Source: Flexistipes sinusarabici DSM 4947
GTDB taxonomy: Bacteria > Chrysiogenota > Deferribacteres > Deferribacterales > Flexistipitaceae
Assembly: GCF_000218625.1 (NCBI RefSeq)
Contig: NC_015672.1
Coordinates: 1,835,451-1,899,450, forward strand
Length of the DNA stretch: 64,000 nt
Direction: 5' to 3'
The notes beneath the pieces are model-generated. The model made no database searches, had not been told where the DNA came from, and saw only the letters and a program-made list of their open reading frames with translations. Each line of letters starts with the position of its first letter. Position 1 is the stretch's first letter. The position numbers and the translations under genes were made by a program. This document shows positions 6,996-32,309 of this stretch, in pieces.

Positions 6996-7131
6996 TTAAC
7001 TCTCTCCCTACTTCCCTACTTCCCTACTTCTCTACTTCTCTACCTCACTACCTCACTACCTCACTATTTCACCACTTCCCCATTTCACTACCTCACTCAT
7101 TACCCATCACGCGTCACGCATTACGGCTTAC
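6996..7131. repeat. Pyrimidine-rich octanucleotide array
   Basis: From about 7007 the plus strand reads as consecutive degenerate 8-mers (CCCTACTT three times, CTCTACTT, CTCTACCT, CACTACCT twice, then drifting), with consensus near CNCTACYT. It ends in the words ACGCGTCACGCATTACGGCTT. The last codons of the ATPase 3' fragment on the minus strand are inside the array end. The same array type occurs at 241-300, 16145-16186, 27455-27550 and, as its complement, at 14262-14310 and 26712-27080. Confidence 0.75.
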
Positions 7132-25075: not shown

Positions 25076-25079
25076 TTCG

Positions 25080-25337
25080 GTAGTAGGTGTAGTAGACGTA
25101 GTATGGGTAGTATGAGTATTATGCGTTATAGGGGTTGTAAGGGTTTGTACTGTTGAATATAACAAAATTCATACAGTGAGAGCAATGTCCGGACGGGCGT
25201 CATCGCGGCTGAGCTCTTAAAGCGTTAAGTGCCCGGGTGGCGACCTCATGCTCCGTATGGGAGATTGCTTCACTCCGTTCGCAATGACGGCAAACGTTGT
25301 AAGGGTAGTAGGGTTGTATAAGTACTGAGAGGTTTGG
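25080..25337 (+). repeat. Left part of four-helix-bundle element 1: nonamer arrays and palindromic module
   Basis: 25083-25155 reads as degenerate 9-mers (GTAGTAGGT, GTAGTAGAC, GTAGTATGG, GTAGTATGA, drifting). 25183-25295 is an imperfect palindromic module (GGGCGTCATCGCGGC ... GATTGCTTCACTCCGTTCGC, AATGACG). 25296-25320 resumes the 9-bp array (GTTGTAAGGGTAGTAGGGTT). The array is the inverse complement in style of the one after the four-helix-bundle ORF, so the ORF lies between inverted arrays. Confidence 0.7.
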
Positions 25338-26174
25338 ATGGGTAGAAGCTGGAAGGATTTAATTGTGTGGCAGAAAAGTCACGAACTGGTATTATATATT
25401 TATGGGGTTCTGGAAGACTTCCCCAAAGAGGAAAAGTACGTCTTAGCATCACAGATTAAACGAGCTGCTATCTCTATTCCTACAAATATAGTTGAGGGGC
25501 ATTCAAAGAACAGTAACAAGGAATTTTTGAAATTTTTGTACATTTCCAGAGGTTCCCTGGAGGAAGTTAAATATTTACTGATACTCTCCAGAGATTTAAA
25601 CTACATTTCCGAAGAAATATATCAGAAACTTGAAGAAAAATTGTCAAAAATCGGCATGCTTCTAAATAATCTCATCAAATCCGTCGACTCCCGTACCACC
25701 TCTACTACCCCTAATACCAATACTACCCGTACTACCCGTACTACCCATAATACCCCTAAAACCAAAGGTTTTACATTGATTGAACTTGTTATCATTATCA
25801 TTCTCGTTGGTATAGTTGCAATGGTAGTGGCACCTAAAATTACTACTTCAGATATTGAAAAAAATGCGGAAGTTGTCCGGCTGATGTCCGATATCCGATA
25901 TGTGCAGCACAAATCAATGGTGTCAGGCGGAGGAAAAGGAATACAATTTACTTCGAACGGTTATAAATTTATTAAAATTAAGGACAAAGAAAATGTAAGC
26001 GGTCTTTCTGCTATAACTCCGCCCTCACAAAACCCGCTTTACTTTGATTATTTGGGCAGGCCCGACACTGACAATATTTCGACCAATGACAATATTGTCA
26101 CAAATAAAATCACAATAACCATCGGCGGGAAAAATATTTATATAGCTCCCTATGCAGGCGGGGTCTATGAATAA
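25338..26174 (+). CDS. Four-helix-bundle (S23/bIVP) protein fused in frame to a GspH/MshC-like prepilin
   Basis: 278 residues in one frame. Residues 1-115 are a four-helix-bundle protein of the 23S-rRNA-intervening-sequence family (WKDLIVWQKSHELVLYIY, then RAAISIPTNIVEGHSKNSNKEF and SRGSLEEVKYLL). Residues 117-143 are a Thr-rich linker of TTx triplets encoded by a 9-bp array. Residues 144 onward are a prepilin: KG-FTLIELVIIIILVGIVAMVVAPK with Glu at +5, then a short GspH-like domain. A normal prepilin leader is only 5-25 residues, so the fusion looks like a mobile insertion within the leader codons. Prepilin peptidase could still cut after Gly144. The ATG follows GAGAGG at 5 nt. Whether the fusion is functional is unknown. 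Confidence 0.85.
   Translation: MGRSWKDLIVWQKSHELVLYIYGVLEDFPKEEKYVLASQIKRAAISIPTNIVEGHSKNSNKEFLKFLYISRGSLEEVKYLLILSRDLNYISEEIYQKLEEKLSKIGMLLNNLIKSVDSRTTSTTPNTNTTRTTRTTHNTPKTKGFTLIELVIIIILVGIVAMVVAPKITTSDIEKNAEVVRLMSDIRYVQHKSMVSGGGKGIQFTSNGYKFIKIKDKENVSGLSAITPPSQNPLYFDYLGRPDTDNISTNDNIVTNKITITIGGKNIYIAPYAGGVYE
25691..25766. repeat. Right nonamer array of element 1 (coding)
   Basis: TACCACCTC, TACTACCCC, TAATACCAA, TACTACCCG (twice), TACTACCCA, TAATACCCC, TAAAACCAA: eight units of 9 bp with consensus TACTACCCN, the reverse complement of the GTAGTANGN units on the left. Because 9 is a multiple of 3 the array stays open and encodes the TTx linker. It ends directly at the codons for Gly-Phe-Thr-Leu-Ile-Glu. 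Confidence 0.8.
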
Positions 26175-26694
26175 AGGGTTCACTTTAATTGAGATAATTA
26201 TTTTTATAGTTGTTTTTTCCATAGGTGTTATGGGAATAATGATGTTATTTTTTAACACACTCGGCAAAACATCCGATCCTACTTTGAGGCTTAGAGGAGT
26301 GCAGGTTGCCGAAGCCGTAATGGAGGAAATAAAGGGTAAAAAATGGGATGAATCCACTCCAAACGGCGGCGGCGATAATCAAAGTATTCCTTATATTTGC
26401 ACAGAAGAACCGATTGATCAGGAAGAAAAATTTGATGATGTAGACGATTATGTAAAAGACAGTAATTGTAATGCAAACACAAAAATTTATTCTGGCTATA
26501 CCAGCTCTGATTTCGGTTTTGACAATCTGACCAGCGGTTTTGACATTTCTATAAAAGTCGGCTTTGCAGATAATTCTACAGGTGTTTATGATTTTGTTAA
26601 CAGTCAAACCAATTTTAAATTAATAGAGGTCACAGTCACCAAAGGCGCATTGAATGAAACCTATACACTGAGAATGTTAAAGGGAAATTTTTAG
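26167..26694 (+). CDS. MshD/PilV-like minor prepilin
   Basis: 175 residues starting at the ATG at 26167 (MNKG-FTLIEIIIFIVVFSIGVMGI), a classical class III leader of four residues. An upstream in-frame ATG at 26152 is less likely. It overlaps the previous stop codon (ATGAATAA), so translation is coupled. After the hydrophobic N-helix the soluble part has VQVAEAVMEEIKGKKWDE, typical of MshD/PilV/GspI-like minor pilins, and a Cys pair (YICTEE, DSNCN) that could form a disulfide. Confidence 0.8.
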   Translation: MNKGFTLIEIIIFIVVFSIGVMGIMMLFFNTLGKTSDPTLRLRGVQVAEAVMEEIKGKKWDESTPNGGGDNQSIPYICTEEPIDQEEKFDDVDDYVKDSNCNANTKIYSGYTSSDFGFDNLTSGFDISIKVGFADNSTGVYDFVNSQTNFKLIEVTVTKGALNETYTLRMLKGNF

Positions 26695-26700
26695 ATACCG

Positions 26701-27082
26701 CAAGGCGTAAAATGGTGAAGGAGTGAAATGGTGAGGTAGGGAGATGGAGAGATAGGAAAAAGCAAAAGCAAAGGCAAAAACAAAAGCTAAGGAAAGGTTT
26801 ATCCCTTTTGGGACATTACGATGGGTACGCTTGTTAGCGGACGACGTGGTAATCTCAAGCGTCATCGCGAGGGCGAAAGCCCGCGGCGATCTCATGTTTT
26901 GTATTAGAGATTGCTTCGCTGCGCTCGCAATGATGAAGTGAAAGTGAGATGGAGAAGTGGAAATAGTGAGATGGTGAAGTGGGGAGATAGGGAGATAGAG
27001 AAATGGGGAAGTTGTGAAGTAGGGAGATAGAGAGGAAGAAAAATAGTGAAATAGTGAGATAGTAAGGGAGTGAGATAGAAAG
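26701..27082 (+). repeat. Left part of four-helix-bundle element 2: octamer arrays and palindromic module
   Basis: 26712-26755 is purine-rich 8-bp repeat (GGTGAGGTAGGGAGATGGAG). 26756-26790 is AAAGCAAAAGCAAAGGC-like. 26857-26935 is the palindromic module (GCGTCATCGCGAGGGC ... GATTGCTTCGCTGCGC, TCGCAATGA). 26936-27080 is a long array of 8-mers (GGGAGATA, GTGAGATG, GTGAAGTG and variants). Order and orientation repeat those of element 1, although the unit is 8 bp rather than 9. Confidence 0.7.
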
Positions 27083-27445
27083 ATGGAAAAACCACATAAA
27101 AAATTGAAGGCATGGCAAAAATCTGTGGAATTTTCTGTAAAAATTTATGAAATTACAGAAAATTTCCCAAAAAGTGAGCTATATGGGCTCACAAACCAGC
27201 TAAGACGGGCAGCCATTTCTGTCCCCTCTAATATTGCTGAAGGCGCTGCCAGAAATTCCATTAAAGAAAAAGCACAATTTTATAATATAGCCCGCGGATC
27301 GATCAGCGAAATTGATACACAAATAGAAATAGCATCACGATTAGGATTTATAGATGAGAGTGATAAACATATTATGATAAGTAACTTAACAGAAATTGAC
27401 AAATTACTTTACGGATTATGGAAAAAAATATGCGAAAAAAGTTGA
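27083..27445 (+). CDS. Four-helix-bundle (S23/bIVP) protein
   Basis: 120 residues (KKLKAWQKSVEFSVKIYEI, then RRAAISVPSNIAEGAARNSIKEKAQFYNIARGSISEIDTQ). It belongs to the four-helix-bundle family first seen in 23S rRNA intervening sequences; the Avd accessory protein of diversity-generating retroelements has a related fold. It is similar but not identical to the bundle domain of the fusion protein at 25338. Its last 28 bases overlap the next prepilin frame. No reverse transcriptase or variable repeat is seen in the window, so a retroelement role is not supported. Function unknown; the flanking arrays suggest it belongs to a mobile unit. Confidence 0.85.
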   Translation: MEKPHKKLKAWQKSVEFSVKIYEITENFPKSELYGLTNQLRRAAISVPSNIAEGAARNSIKEKAQFYNIARGSISEIDTQIEIASRLGFIDESDKHIMISNLTEIDKLLYGLWKKICEKS

Positions 27446-28302
27446 AAGAAACGTCATCTACCCCACGACCTCACCATTCCCCTATCTCCCCATCTCACGT
27501 CCTCACTCCCTCACCATCTCACCATCTCACCACTTCACGCGCTACGCACGGTTTCACTCTCATTGAACTGATAATAGCCATAGTTTTACTGGGCATTGTG
27601 GCAGGAGTTGGAGTAAATCTAATTATGCCGATATTTACCGGCTACGTTGACACACGGACAAAAGAATACCTGTTTAATGAAGTAAAATATGGTGTCCAAA
27701 GAATGGACAGAGAGCTGAGGATGGCTGTTCCAAATTCTGTAAAAGTTATCGACAGCGGCGATGGAATACGATTTATGAAACTTTACAGCGGAAATTATTA
27801 TGAAAAACCCAAAGGAAAAACTAAAAATTACCTAAACATTTTTGACAACTGCTCAAATATACTAAAAATTTTTAACCCTGCCACCAACACTACAAACGAT
27901 AATCTGACCGTTTATGTTACTAAACCTGACAAAATATACAATACACCGAAATATTGGTATAATGCTTCCAAATGTTACAATAAAGACAACATTACAATAA
28001 GTAATGATTTGAAAGCCCAATCTCCTTACAGCAGGTTCTACGTTATTGATGCACCGATGACTTTTTTTAAAGAAAGTACTGATATTTTTTTGAGTCGTGA
28101 TTATGACTGGACAACTTACGACGGAACCGAAAACAGCGTAGACCATTACAAACTCATGTCATATGTTAATGATATTGACTTCAATTATGAGCCGGGTATC
28201 CCGCAGAAAAGAAACGGAGTGGTGACAATTTCAATTACGATGAAAAAAGGAACCACAACACTCAATTATAAACATCAGATTCATATAAGGAATGTCCCAT
28301 GA
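27418..28302 (+). CDS. MshO/PilW-like minor prepilin with repeat-encoded leader
   Basis: 294 residues. The leader is 45 residues, far longer than usual, and residues about 12-43 (Ser/Pro/His/Thr-rich, e.g. HSPISPSH, PSPSHHLTTS) are encoded by the 8-bp array. The mature part starts after Gly45: FTLIELIIAIVLLGIVAGVG. The body has a PilW/MshO-like pattern (NEVKYGVQRMDRELRMAVPNSV) and ends in a beta-rich domain. The start (27418, or 27430) lies inside the four-helix-bundle ORF without its own ribosome-binding site, implying translational coupling. Function in pilus assembly or tip is inferred from family and context. Confidence 0.78.
   Translation: MEKNMRKKLKETSSTPRPHHSPISPSHVLTPSPSHHLTTSRATHGFTLIELIIAIVLLGIVAGVGVNLIMPIFTGYVDTRTKEYLFNEVKYGVQRMDRELRMAVPNSVKVIDSGDGIRFMKLYSGNYYEKPKGKTKNYLNIFDNCSNILKIFNPATNTTNDNLTVYVTKPDKIYNTPKYWYNASKCYNKDNITISNDLKAQSPYSRFYVIDAPMTFFKESTDIFLSRDYDWTTYDGTENSVDHYKLMSYVNDIDFNYEPGIPQKRNGVVTISITMKKGTTTLNYKHQIHIRNVP
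27455..27550. repeat. Right octamer array of element 2 (coding)
   Basis: Pyrimidine-rich 8-mers in phase: CTCACCAT, TCCCCTAT, CTCCCCAT, CTCACGTC, CTCACTCC, CTCACCAT (twice), CTCACCAC, TTCACGCG, CTACGCAC. They are the reverse complement in style of the arrays at 26936-27080. The array ends exactly where the GFTLIEL codons begin. Although 8 is not a multiple of 3, this frame is free of stops. Confidence 0.8.
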
Positions 28303-28685
28303 TTAATAACAATAAAGGCTTTTCACTCCTTTTGGCAGTTTTTCTCCTTGTGGTATTCGGATTCATCGGAGTATCTATTATCACTATGTTATCGAATCAA
28401 TCAGTGAACTCCTCTGAGGAACTCATTTCCGCACAGGCATTTCATCTTGCTGAAAGCGGTGTTGAATGGGGAATCAGAGAATCAATCGACAACGGGTCAT
28501 GTAATAACATCTCCGGAGAATTAAGAATTAAAAACCAAAGCGGATATGCGACAGTAAATGTCAGAAAAATTTCTGACAATATATCCAGCCAGCCGCCGGC
28601 AAACTATTCAGAACTTTGCGAAGTAACATCCACAGGCCAGATTAACGGCATCAAAAGAAAACTCAAAGTCAAATTTAAACGATAA
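28299..28685 (+). CDS. MshP/PilX-like minor prepilin
   Basis: 128 residues starting MINNNKG-FSLLLAVFLLVVFGFIGVS. The Glu5 of typical prepilins is replaced (FSLLL), as is common in PilX/MshP/GspK-like members. AFHLAESGVEWGIRE is the characteristic PilX N-terminal segment. ATGA overlap with the preceding gene shows coupling. It is the last gene of the minor pilin block; repeat words and an IS follow at once, so a longer operon may have been cut here. Confidence 0.78.
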   Translation: MINNNKGFSLLLAVFLLVVFGFIGVSIITMLSNQSVNSSEELISAQAFHLAESGVEWGIRESIDNGSCNNISGELRIKNQSGYATVNVRKISDNISSQPPANYSELCEVTSTGQINGIKRKLKVKFKR

Positions 28686-28736
28686 CCTCACTGCTTCACT
28701 ATCTCACGTATTACGGCTCTTCCCTACCTCACTATG

Positions 28737-30284
28737 TAGTTAACCCTGAAAAAGGTATATTTTCTTAAAATTTGCCAATATTTTTGTTTATTAAATGTAA
28801 ACTATACATATATTTTGGCATACTTTTTATCCAGAAACACTTCGTTTGCAAAATTTGCTAATTTTTTTGCAATATTATCCATAAATTTTTTGAGAAAAAA
28901 TAAAAGAAAGGCCAGTATCAGCCTTAAATTATGTCCACTTGCTGCCAAAATCGCATTAGCTTTATCTCCCTCTTTGCCTTTCAGATAATTTCTGTCCATC
29001 CGGTTATCTCGCTTAGTATGACCTATCGTCGCCTCAACACAACTTCGTCTTTTCAATAACCTCTTAAAATTAACTTTGAATTTCTTCATACTGCGTGGAA
29101 CTACATGGACTTTTGCATCCCCTCTATAATTGTGCTTCCTGTAACCCAAATCTACCAATATCGTATCTATTGTACCGTTACTACCCAAAAGGGTTTTTGC
29201 TTCACATAAATTCTCTTCTAATGTATGACCGTCATAAGGATTGCCGTGAAATGATTTGCAACTCAGTATAAAATTCTTCTTCAATGTACCAACAAAACCT
29301 ACTTTGTTACCAAACTCATACCTCTTATGGCTCTTGCCCTTGCTAATGCACTCAACCTCTGGACTGTGAAGACTGTAAAGTTTGTTCTTGCTCTTTTTAC
29401 TCCGATTCCACAAACTCTCGTAAAATAACTTTAGCTGTTGAAACTCATCCGAATTCCTCAATTCCTCAGGTAAAACCCTTTCTATAGAACGATATAATTT
29501 GCCCATCTTTGTCTTCATCTTTTTTACTGCCTTACCCGCTCTCTTGTACTGTTTCGCATGAACATAGCCACTATATTTCATCAATAGCTTCTTGCCGGAA
29601 TATTCATGTGTCTCCTTTAACCTTATCTCATGCTTCTTTGAAAATTTCACAAGATATTTGATCATTGTATAAAAAAGTTTTATGTCCGTTGGAAACGTTA
29701 TGTTCTTTTCCTGCACCGTCGTATCTGCAGCTACTTTCTTTACGTCATTCTTATTAAGATAACCACTACGAAAAGCAGTGTTAATTGTCTCCTCTAAAAA
29801 CTTCAACAAATCTTCTTCTTTTAAACGATTCCGAAATCTTGTCATGCTGGTTGGATTTATCGGCACCTTTGTCTGGAATACCTTTTCTCCAGTGAAGTAC
29901 TGCCAGTAAGGGTTTTCTTTCCAGCCATGCACCACGTCTTCATCACTCAAATTGTACGTGTATTTCAAATAATGAAACCCAACCATCATACGCATTGGAA
30001 TTCCTGGGCGACCATCGTTACGGTGATAAAGACTGCCAAATTCTTTCTCAAAATATTCCCAGTCTATTTTATCTGCTAATTGTATTAATGGATGTTTCAT
30101 ATCTAGAATGTTAACAAGCAGTGGTTCTAAAAGCTCTTGTGTCGTCGAATCTTGCTTCTTAGGACGCATATAATCCCCCGGGTTTTTTGCTTATTCCTTT
30201 ACTTTTCTGTGGGATTACTTTAGCATATTTCCTTGGTTAACTCAAGTATTATCAAATAGTTATCTAGTTTCTCAGGGCTAACTA
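28737..30284 (-). mobile_element. IS5-superfamily element (1548 bp), left copy
   Basis: Terminal inverted repeats TAGTTAACCCTGA (28737) and, inverted, TAGTTAGCCCTGA (to 30284) enclose one transposase gene. A second copy of the same length lies at 30762-32309 in the opposite direction. TA at both outer edges may be either part of the repeat or a 2-bp target duplication. The right border cuts the aat reading frame. Confidence 0.88.
28802..30169 (-). CDS. IS5-superfamily DDE transposase, left copy
   Basis: 455 residues. The N-terminal DUF772-like region (HPLIQLADKIDWEYFEKEFG, GRPGIPMRMMVGFHYLKYTYNLSDEDVV) is followed by AADTTVQEKNI (first Asp), a long Lys-rich insertion, VDLGYRKHNY (second Asp) and RRSCVEATIGHTKRDNRM (Glu). 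It differs from the right copy by two residues. A GGGGG-containing ribosome-binding region precedes the ATG. Apparently intact. Confidence 0.92.
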   Translation of the reverse strand: MRPKKQDSTTQELLEPLLVNILDMKHPLIQLADKIDWEYFEKEFGSLYHRNDGRPGIPMRMMVGFHYLKYTYNLSDEDVVHGWKENPYWQYFTGEKVFQTKVPINPTSMTRFRNRLKEEDLLKFLEETINTAFRSGYLNKNDVKKVAADTTVQEKNITFPTDIKLFYTMIKYLVKFSKKHEIRLKETHEYSGKKLLMKYSGYVHAKQYKRAGKAVKKMKTKMGKLYRSIERVLPEELRNSDEFQQLKLFYESLWNRSKKSKNKLYSLHSPEVECISKGKSHKRYEFGNKVGFVGTLKKNFILSCKSFHGNPYDGHTLEENLCEAKTLLGSNGTIDTILVDLGYRKHNYRGDAKVHVVPRSMKKFKVNFKRLLKRRSCVEATIGHTKRDNRMDRNYLKGKEGDKANAILAASGHNLRLILAFLLFFLKKFMDNIAKKLANFANEVFLDKKYAKIYV

Positions 30285-30576
30285 TATTAAGCTGCATAAA
30301 CTCGGATATGCCTATTCGATAGAAGTCTGGCAAAACAAAGACATTGTCGGCGGACTTTACGGACTTCAGATTGGTAATTACGTCTGCGGTGAATCGATGT
30401 TTCATGAAGCGGATAACGCTTCCGATGCCGCGCTTATAAAACTCCTGCAAACAGCTCATGAAAAAAATATAGGGTTCATTGACTGTCAGGTAACAAGCGA
30501 TCACATTTTCCGTTACGGTGCTGCTCAAGTCACCCGGGAATTTTTCCTCAATCTTCTATACCGGGAGCTTGCGTAA
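30285..30576 (+). pseudogene. aat: Leucyl/phenylalanyl-tRNA-protein transferase, C-terminal fragment
   Basis: The plus strand, in the frame ending at TAA 30574-30576, encodes LHKLGYAYSIEVWQ, IVGGLYGLQIG, VCGESMF and GFIDCQVTSDHIFRYGA, an unmistakable Aat C-terminal half. About 96 residues remain. The N-terminal half was removed by the IS copy at 28737-30284 and is not present on the other side of that IS. The N-end-rule transferase is therefore inactive at this locus unless another copy exists elsewhere in the genome. Confidence 0.9.
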
Positions 30577-30761
30577 ATACTCCGATAGTTCAACGTTCAA
30601 AGTTAGTGGATGTGAAAGTGAGAGTGAGAGAGGGAAATGGTGACCCACACTTCGTAAGTGTGATCTTTAAATACGAGATTGCTTCGTTGTCCTCGCAATG
30701 ACCAAATAAAAAACCGTCATTACGAGGGACAAAGTCCCGAAGTAATCTCATGTCTTTTACT
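30577..30761. repeat. Dispersed repeat and palindromic modules after aat
   Basis: It contains TTCAACGTTCAAAGTTAGTGG (split here as TTCAACGTTC and AAAGTTAGTGG), a short purine 8-bp array (GTGAGAGTGAGAGAGG), and two facing palindromic modules (GAGATTGCTTCG ... CGCAATGAC; GTCATTACGAGGG ... AGTAATCTC). No gene is seen. Confidence 0.55.
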
Positions 30762-32309
30762 TAGTTAGCCCTGAGAAACTAGATAACTATTTGATAATAC
30801 TTGAGTTAACCAAGGAAATATGCTAAAGTAATCCCACAGAAAAGTAAAGGAATAAGCAAAAAACCCGGGGGATTATATGCGTCCTAAGAAGCAAGATTCG
30901 ACGACACAAGAGCTTTTAGAACCACTGCTTGTTAACATTATAGATATGAAACATCCATTAATACAATTAGCAGATAAAATAGACTGGGAATATTTTGAGA
31001 AAGAATTTGGCAGTCTTTATCACCGTAACGATGGTCGCCCAGGAATTCCAATACGTATGATGGTTGGGTTTCATTATTTGAAATACACGTACAATTTGAG
31101 TGATGAAGACGTGGTGCATGGCTGGAAAGAAAACCCTTACTGGCAGTACTTCACTGGAGAAAAGGTATTCCAGACAAAGGTGCCGATAAATCCAACCAGC
31201 ATGACAAGATTTCGGAATCGTTTAAAAGAAGAAGATTTGTTGAAGTTTTTAGAGGAGACAATTAACACTGCTTTTCGTAGTGGTTATCTTAATAAGAATG
31301 ACGTAAAGAAAGTAGCTGCAGATACGACGGTGCAGGAAAAGAACATAACGTTTCCAACGGACATAAAACTTTTTTATACAATGATCAAATATCTTGTGAA
31401 ATTTTCAAAGAAGCATGAGATAAGGTTAAAGGAGACACATGAATATTCCGGCAAGAAGCTATTGATGAAATATAGTGGCTATGTTCATGCGAAACAGTAC
31501 AAGAGAGCGGGTAAGGCAGTAAAAAAGATGAAGACAAAGATGGGCAAATTATATCGTTCTATAGAAAGGGTTTTACCTGAGGAATTGAGGAATTCGGATG
31601 AGTTTCAACAGCTAAAGTTATTTTACGAGAGTTTGTGGAATCGGAGTAAAAAGAGCAAGAACAAACTTTACAGTCTTCACAGTCCAGAGGTTGAGTGCAT
31701 TAGCAAGGGCAAGAGCCATAAGAGGTATGAGTTTGGTAACAAAGTAGGTTTTGTTGGTACATTGAAGAAGAATTTTATACTGAGTTGCAAATCATTTCAC
31801 GGCAATCCTTATGACGGTCATACATTAGAAGAGAATTTATGTGAAGCAAAAACCCTTTTGGGTAGTAACGGTACAATAGATACGATATTGGTAGATTTGG
31901 GTTACAGGAAGCACAATTATAGAGGGGATGCAAAAGTCCATGTAGTTCCACGCAGTATGAAGAAATTCAAAGTTAATTTTAAGAGGTTATTGAAAAGACG
32001 AAGTTGTGTTGAGGCGACGATAGGTCATACTAAGCGAGATAACCGGATGGACAGAAATTATCTGAAAGGCAAAGAGGGAGATAAAGCTAATGCGATTTTG
32101 GCAGCAAGTGGACATAATTTAAGGCTGATACTGGCCTTTCTTTTATTTTTTCTCAAAAAATTTATGGATAATATTGCAAAAAAATTAGCAAATTTTGCAA
32201 ACGAAGTGTTTCTGGATAAAAAGTATGCCAAAATATATGTATAGTTTACATTTAATAAACAAAAATATTGGCAAATTTTAAGAAAATATACCTTTTTCAG
32301 GGTTAACTA
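30762..32309 (+). mobile_element. IS5-superfamily element (1548 bp), right copy
   Basis: Same length and ends as the copy at 28737-30284 but inverted. Together they form a pair of 1.5-kb inverted arms around a 477-bp spacer holding the aat fragment. The arms are nearly identical, which suggests recent duplication. Such a pair can invert the spacer by homologous recombination or act as a composite unit. Confidence 0.88.
30877..32244 (+). CDS. IS5-superfamily DDE transposase, right copy
   Basis: 455 residues, differing from the left copy only at Ile22 (Leu there) and Ile of GRPGIPIRM (Met there). DDE residues and length are intact. It would be transcribed away from the aat fragment. Confidence 0.92.
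   Translation: MRPKKQDSTTQELLEPLLVNIIDMKHPLIQLADKIDWEYFEKEFGSLYHRNDGRPGIPIRMMVGFHYLKYTYNLSDEDVVHGWKENPYWQYFTGEKVFQTKVPINPTSMTRFRNRLKEEDLLKFLEETINTAFRSGYLNKNDVKKVAADTTVQEKNITFPTDIKLFYTMIKYLVKFSKKHEIRLKETHEYSGKKLLMKYSGYVHAKQYKRAGKAVKKMKTKMGKLYRSIERVLPEELRNSDEFQQLKLFYESLWNRSKKSKNKLYSLHSPEVECISKGKSHKRYEFGNKVGFVGTLKKNFILSCKSFHGNPYDGHTLEENLCEAKTLLGSNGTIDTILVDLGYRKHNYRGDAKVHVVPRSMKKFKVNFKRLLKRRSCVEATIGHTKRDNRMDRNYLKGKEGDKANAILAASGHNLRLILAFLLFFLKKFMDNIAKKLANFANEVFLDKKYAKIYV

Follow-up and report, generated by a model that had tools for sequence, protein, structure and literature searches.

The genome of Flexistipes sinusarabici DSM 4947 (Deferribacterota; a single contig of 2,526,590 bp) carries, within a pilin operon, two small units, each formed by a gene for an S23 four-helix-bundle protein and by flanking arrays of short tandem repeats, the downstream array being inverted relative to the upstream one. 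The stretch analysed, here called the window, has 64,000 nucleotides and corresponds to positions 1835451–1899450 of that contig; coordinates below are window positions unless stated otherwise. An S23 gene with its cognate inverted terminal arrays (its arms) is very likely a mobile unit, and such units probably constitute a family of bacterial mobile elements that lie in sense orientation in the gaps between co-transcribed genes, with the intervening sequences (IVSs) of rRNA genes among its members. Each S23 lineage has arms of its own, gene and arms are jointly present or absent at sites of high identity, derivatives reduced to the arms occur, and the units are found at more than one locus. 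The parts of the two window units and of the adjoining pilin genes are the following.

25079–25143, + strand: left arm of unit 1, a 9-bp array with a repeat unit of approximately GGTAGTATG; aligns to the reverse complement of 25690–25754 with a score of 25
25199–25289, unstranded: repetitive extragenic palindromic (REP)-like repeat inside the left arm of unit 1, not the unit's own; kin copies elsewhere in the genome
25296–25319, + strand: inner rest of the left array of unit 1 (short second array); score 13.5 against the right arm
25338–25682, + strand: S23 / four-helix-bundle domain of unit 1 (PF05635, TIGR02436); frame without a stop until 26174
25690–25754, − strand: right arm of unit 1, inverted 9-bp array, read as a Thr/Pro/Asn-rich linker
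25767–26174, + strand: pilin A, beginning with the Gly of its GFTLIE prepilin motif (PF07963), in frame with the S23 domain of unit 1
26705–26756, + strand: outer left array of unit 2; score 17.5 against the right arm
26861–26934, unstranded: REP-like palindromic repeat separating the outer and inner left arrays of unit 2
about 26937–27075, + strand: inner left arm of unit 2, an 8-bp array with a repeat unit of approximately GAGATAGT; score 23 against the right arm
27083–27445, + strand: S23 / four-helix-bundle protein of unit 2, 120 aa, with its own stop codon
27458–27540, − strand: right arm of unit 2, inverted 8-bp array, which encodes the greater part of the long pilin B leader
27418–28302, + strand: pilin B open reading frame (ORF), with a 44-residue element-encoded leader followed by GFTLIE (Gly codon at 27550)

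The original prediction had described each unit as array, palindrome, array, S23 ORF and inverted array, with a 9-bp period in unit 1 and an 8-bp period in unit 2. The arrays, their periods, their inversion and both S23 ORFs are real, and this order of parts is found in both units; two details did not hold. The frame of unit 1 has no stop of its own and continues through the inverted array into pilin A as a single ORF of 278 aa. The palindrome (GTCATCGCG...GCAATGA), which had been regarded as a module of the unit, has six copies in the genome at no more than three mismatches, one of which lies beside an S23 gene, and it is missing from the copy of unit 1 in the sister species (genome G016; G000 is the host genome, G010 belongs to another family, and L-numbers denote loci that were read). 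Its spread elsewhere and its absence from the sister unit 1 indicate that it is a separate REP-like insertion interrupting the left array, and a role as part of the unit was rejected.

Unit 1 begins 3 bp past the stop codon of a DUF6701 gene, and unit 2 is placed between the preceding pilin-like gene and pilin B, whose start at 27418 overlaps the S23 ORF of unit 2. Both stop exactly at the Gly codon of GFTLIE (25767 in pilin A, 27550 in pilin B). Since this Gly belongs to the cleavage motif, the encoded part should be removed and the pilin site should be harmless: prepilin peptidase would strip all unit-encoded residues from the mature pilin. A translated repeat of another kind was seen in G011 (L057, 350–997), where the pilin A leader holds a palindromic repeat (SLRALAKQSG) before the prepilin cleavage motif.

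Matching between arms was scored by aligning the 500 bases upstream of each S23 gene with the reverse complement of the 400 bases downstream, in 36 S23 units of the phylum. The scores of 25.0 for unit 1 and 23.0 for unit 2 compare with a median of 10 and a 99th percentile of 15 at random window positions of the same spacing, where two inverted transposase copies at 28802–32244 account for the maximum of 362. (These are near-identical 455-aa DUF772/DDE genes, at 28802–30169 on the − strand and 30877–32244 on the + strand, about 700 bases apart.) Own-arm scores of the 36 units sum to 646.5. Permutation of the arms among units gives a mean of 382, and permutation of right arms within genomes only gives a mean of 457 and a maximum of 610; under either scheme, and also with permutation confined to the host genome, none of 20,000 permutations reaches the observed sum. 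A broader sample was obtained by scanning public genomes with the S23 protein of unit 2; the best 80 loci, from many phyla, were kept, and 76 had enough flank. Their own-arm scores add up to 1661, a sum reached in 0 of 10,000 permutations, which average 768 (sd 29, maximum 1015), and 138 control positions 1.3 kb away in the same loci score at most 14. After removal of near-duplicates, 86 of 119 units score above 14, as do all 12 S23 genes read on cyanobacterial plasmids. Inverted arrays, which the original prediction had described from two copies, accompany most other S23 copies in the genome, in the phylum and in the sampled loci of many other phyla.

The repeat unit differs from one S23 unit to the next and matches between the two arms of the same unit. 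Most of the 11 S23 (PF05635) genes of the host genome are flanked by inverted arrays (repeat unit 6–10 bp, elsewhere mostly 7); the period is 7 in 54 of 74 units, from which both window units differ with 9 and 8. Both arms have the same period in 72 of 74 units, a figure partly built in because the arms were picked by alignment, and the G-rich strand of the aligned arms points inward from both ends in 83 of 88. Variants of the repeat unit also follow a common order in the two arms (1449 for whole arrays against 1266 after shuffling, sd 22; 0 of 300), which argues that the arms are inverted copies of each other beyond being arrays of the same unit; this effect is not visible within Flexistipes alone.

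The sequence of the arms goes with the S23 lineage. When units with good arms are compared, S23 pairs with 66% identity or more and non-homologous neighbouring genes (n = 17) have the arm unit in common, at a relative cross-score of 0.91; pairs less than 55% identical reach 0.50 across genomes and 0.58 within the same genome. The contrast has p values of 4e-8 against different genomes and 1.5e-4 against the same genome, which are a guide only, since pairs share members. The same arm unit at unrelated loci, in S23 genes of at least 66% identity, indicates that the arms travel with the gene. In Xanthomonas spp. (L074, L081, L084, L127), S23 units are found between accB and accC, and at this site L127 has a diverged S23 and a different arm sequence.

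The original prediction saw in the window units a class of small mobile element bounded by inverted, drifting short-period arrays, and comparison with empty sites supports it, arms and ORF being gained or lost together at sites of high identity. The best-matched cases are Nostocales plasmids with flanks about 97% identical. Plasmid C of Trichormus variabilis (L154) is full and L160 and L161 are empty, the change being from AAAAAGTAATTAAC to AAAAAGTAAT-[unit]-GTAATTAAC with a 5-bp repeat, GTAAT, on both sides; L158 (full) and L165 give a second clean empty site, with flanks again about 97% identical. Empty counterparts with less exact edges exist for L151, L156 and L157, L162 retains one arm and a truncated S23, and L163 has inverted ends without S23. 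Within the phylum, the purB-side site has S23 and arms in G000 and G016, arms only in G015, and in G010 a clean empty site where the stop codon is directly followed by the next start; the state in G015 can be explained by a deletion between direct copies of GTGCTAAG, which flank S23 in G000. At the cysD-cysN site, G000 has arms and an S23 gene with one internal stop, G016 arms and a disrupted S23, and G010 arms only.

In the pilin operon of the sister species, part of whose left flank is an assembly gap, the units are swapped, with one of the unit-2 type standing before pilin A and one of the unit-1 type before pilin B (cross-scores of 320 and 267 for the swapped pairs and 12 to 26.5 for the others). 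The unit-1 type is fused in frame to its pilin in both species. Between the two species, identity is 91% and 83% for the S23 domains and 96.5% for the first 200 bases of the adjoining pilin gene; S23 being less conserved than the pilin beside it, turnover is likely, rather than simple inheritance in place. G010 has an S23 unit before pilin A and an empty pilin B site, and the pilin B leaders are short in the empty homologues of G011 and G006, from other genera.

S23 units were also read in CRISPR-associated loci, between cas10 and cmr3 of a type III-B operon (L155) and between cas6 and cas4 (L148, L150). In one cas6-cas4 gap, Anabaena sp. 90 has the S23 unit and a plasmid with 99% identical flanks has another hairpin repeat, GTAGGTTGGGTTGA... 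(L170 vs L150); two different repeats in one gap mark it as a repeat target.

The units are strongly oriented. Of the 58 loci where a gene could be called on either side, 47 have both neighbours in the direction of S23, 1 has both in the opposite direction and 10 are mixed; if units lay between co-directional genes in random orientation, the first two arrangements would be equally frequent, not 47 versus 1. Either the mechanism or selection for read-through expression may underlie this sense bias. Two S23 genes of the host genome (L009, L010) lie in 23S rRNA genes, on the same strand, with a 7-bp array as stem, and the 23S copies interrupt a hairpin in its apical loop, at model position 1218/1219; by comparison with PMC4990558 this is taken to be the classic helix-45 site. 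Insertion into pre-existing hairpins was considered as a general rule and rejected, as it is true of 23S and perhaps of one plasmid site and not of the others read. The window units themselves are not inside an rRNA gene.

The only ORF found between the arms of the window units is S23, and no transposase is encoded there. The two proteins match PF05635 with 136.7 and 132.7 bits (cut-off 33.8) and TIGR02436 with 128.5 and 127.1 bits (cut-off 24); the closest solved structure for the protein of unit 2 is 2GSC (XCC0516; E 3e-31, five chains). Compared with the sister-species copies, the ratio of non-synonymous to synonymous substitution rates is about 0.17 for the S23 domain of unit 1 and about 0.13 for that of unit 2, and by this measure the domain is under purifying selection. 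Rfam gave no RNA family at the window units, PADLOC no match to a defence system, and tblastn no match to S23 in 50,697 phage records, by which S23 as a phage gene was rejected. A Y1 transposase or a reverse transcriptase as constant partner was also rejected, as neither co-occurs constantly.

The mechanism of transposition is one that we infer. An S23 oligomer would recognize its own arm repeat, as a DNA hairpin or as RNA, and would promote movement with host or trans-acting enzymes, which are invoked because the unit codes for no recognizable nuclease, transposase or polymerase; that S23 itself acts on the arms in movement has somewhat less than an even chance. The arms may lengthen and drift by slippage and stay alike when one serves as template for the other across the hairpin. 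By inserting in sense orientation between cistrons, the unit would keep S23 translated from the host transcript, and the 23S rRNA IVSs would be family members that landed in an rRNA hairpin loop.

The best surviving alternative, still unlikely, is that the arms are RNA stems under selection, that RNase III cuts the transcript at the stem so that the unit is tolerated, and that pairing selection alone explains the matching. Such cutting is known for an rRNA IVS (PMC4990558), the units lie sense in transcripts, the 23S copies sit in an apical loop, and the predicted RNA folds of both window units are more stable than those of shuffled sequences (z −3.5 for unit 1, −6.3 for unit 2), although better folding is expected from any inverted arrays. 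Pairing selection alone, however, does not explain an arm unit shared within an S23 lineage at unrelated loci; sense and antisense arm duplexes show no difference in stability; and G.U-permitting mismatches show no excess on the sense strand (164 vs 190), a weak test if arms are often rewritten. With no G.U asymmetry, RNA pairing was rejected as the sole cause of arm matching, and DNA-level arm copying with slippage is favoured, being somewhat more probable than RNA pairing as the means by which the arms stay alike.

Less probable again is that the inverted arrays are independent, dispersed heptamer repeats, which S23 joined later as a passenger or which it regulates. In the host genome sample, arrays without S23 outnumber S23 units, 186 GGGAATC repeats are known in Xanthomonas campestris, 70 pairs of them convergent (PMC4692102), and at cysD-cysN the arms stand alone in G010 and with S23 in G000. 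Arm sequence nevertheless tracks the S23 lineage and not the host genome, the best-matched empty sites lack arms and S23 together, and the arms-only state of G015 could have arisen by the deletion proposed above. It is doubtful, too, that S23 and its arms serve the host, for example by adjusting expression between the genes of an operon, and are retained and exchanged by homologous recombination with no mobility of their own. Purifying selection on S23, the position between operon genes and a placement between accB and accC that is conserved in several Xanthomonas species would fit this, whereas presence varies among near-identical plasmids and between sister species, degenerate copies are common, and a single S23 lineage is found in unrelated operons. 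An artefact of chance or annotation, through low-complexity flanks of short ORFs, has a negligible probability: low complexity does allow unrelated arms to score up to 28, but the permutation, positional and homologue controls contradict it.

Several points tell against a mobile element formed by S23 and its arms. In a 464-kb sample of the host genome, arrays without S23 are commoner than S23 units, so that the arrays may be the primary element. Mobility is read from presence and absence at the compared sites, and a clear short target duplication was found at one site only (GTAAT), the TTCTA at a second being possibly arm-derived. At or below the control maximum are 33 of the 119 units (about 28%), several of them truncated or degenerate. 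The broad sample was seeded by a single S23 protein and its best 80 loci are therefore that protein's closest relatives, and the significance values take no account of relatedness.

Short-period arrays without S23 were also seen at gene ends in the window, at 7008–7097 (repeat unit CTACTTCA), 14271–14299 (GAGATAGA), 17724–17805 (mixed CTTTAC/ACTTAGCC) and 28685–28740 (CCTCACT, after the last pilus gene); they are probably remnants or arms-only members. At another host locus (L181, G000:C1:395001–415000), arrays such as TTGGTGTATTGGTTATTGG lie at about 407042–408870 inside apparent genes of sugar-nucleotide biosynthesis, whose products would thereby contain inserts rich in Asn, Thr and Tyr.

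Should S23 units prove to be a shared source of rRNA IVSs and heptanucleotide repeats, a single protein with its arms would allow the origin of both, and the movement of the IVSs, to be tested. Ends that drift freely and still match their own protein would be an unusual case of co-evolution, and a function would be suggested for a large and mostly uncharacterised family of four-helix-bundle proteins; the pilin operon would be a case of such units translated into a leader peptide that is presumably removed.

Parts of this picture are already in the literature, and the statement in the original prediction that no such element had been described was too strong. The IVS of Coxiella is an S23 ORF within a 28-bp inverted-repeat stem that is cut by RNase III, its origin and movement being called unclear (PMC4990558), and an S23-family domain is found in rRNA insertions of bacteria of the candidate phyla radiation (PMC11270868). 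The 23S rRNA IVSs of Coxiella and Leptospira share with the present units the family PF05635 and an ORF within an inverted-repeat stem. In contrast, the setting of the window units and of nearly all others is protein genes, either at a gene start or in the gap between two genes, and their arms are built of tandem repeats that frequently exceed the 28-bp Coxiella stem by far.

The heptamer repeats of Xanthomonas and Nostoc (GGGAATC, GGGGA(C/T)T) and the related TAACTGA of Beggiatoaceae and other groups (PMC4679880) are G-rich 7-base units, a period that most other S23 units have but the window units do not, and often stand in convergent inverted pairs between co-directional ORFs, as with the 70 inverted pairs of X. 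campestris (PMC4692102), and the S23 arms of Xanthomonas are GGGAATC-type arrays like these. The heptamer reports make no link to S23 (the text of PMC4692102 contains neither '23S' nor 'hypothetical protein'), and no paper joining S23 genes with inverted tandem arrays was found in the open-access literature, subscription papers lying outside the search.

REP doublets forming hairpins (REPINs) and their REP-associated tyrosine transposases (RAYTs) are also small, dispersed inverted repeats with a rarer protein-coding partner; S23, however, is not a Y1 transposase, its arms are tandem arrays, and Y1_Tnp has no match in the S23-rich genomes G010 and G013. The Avd proteins of diversity-generating retroelements are distant relatives by profile (bAvd PF22296, NF033474), the window S23s scoring 55.4 and 28.7 bits on NF033474, below its cut-off of 80. 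Three Avd-like genes adjoin a reverse transcriptase and, unlike S23 units, have no arms (scores 8.0, 8.5 and 9.5); the sole RVT_1 match of the host genome, at its position 2416871, is far from every S23 gene. With miniature inverted-repeat transposable elements and insertion sequences the units share inverted termini, short internal-deletion derivatives and a possible 5-bp target duplication, but their termini are drifting tandem arrays that differ with each lineage, and they encode no transposase. For rRNA IVSs and inverted heptamer repeats, each already described, no account was found that joins the two. There is about an even chance that they belong to one pan-bacterial mobile class, whose arrays drift and yet match each other and their own S23, with the dispersed heptamer repeats of many bacteria as its derivatives and the rRNA IVSs as copies that landed in rRNA.

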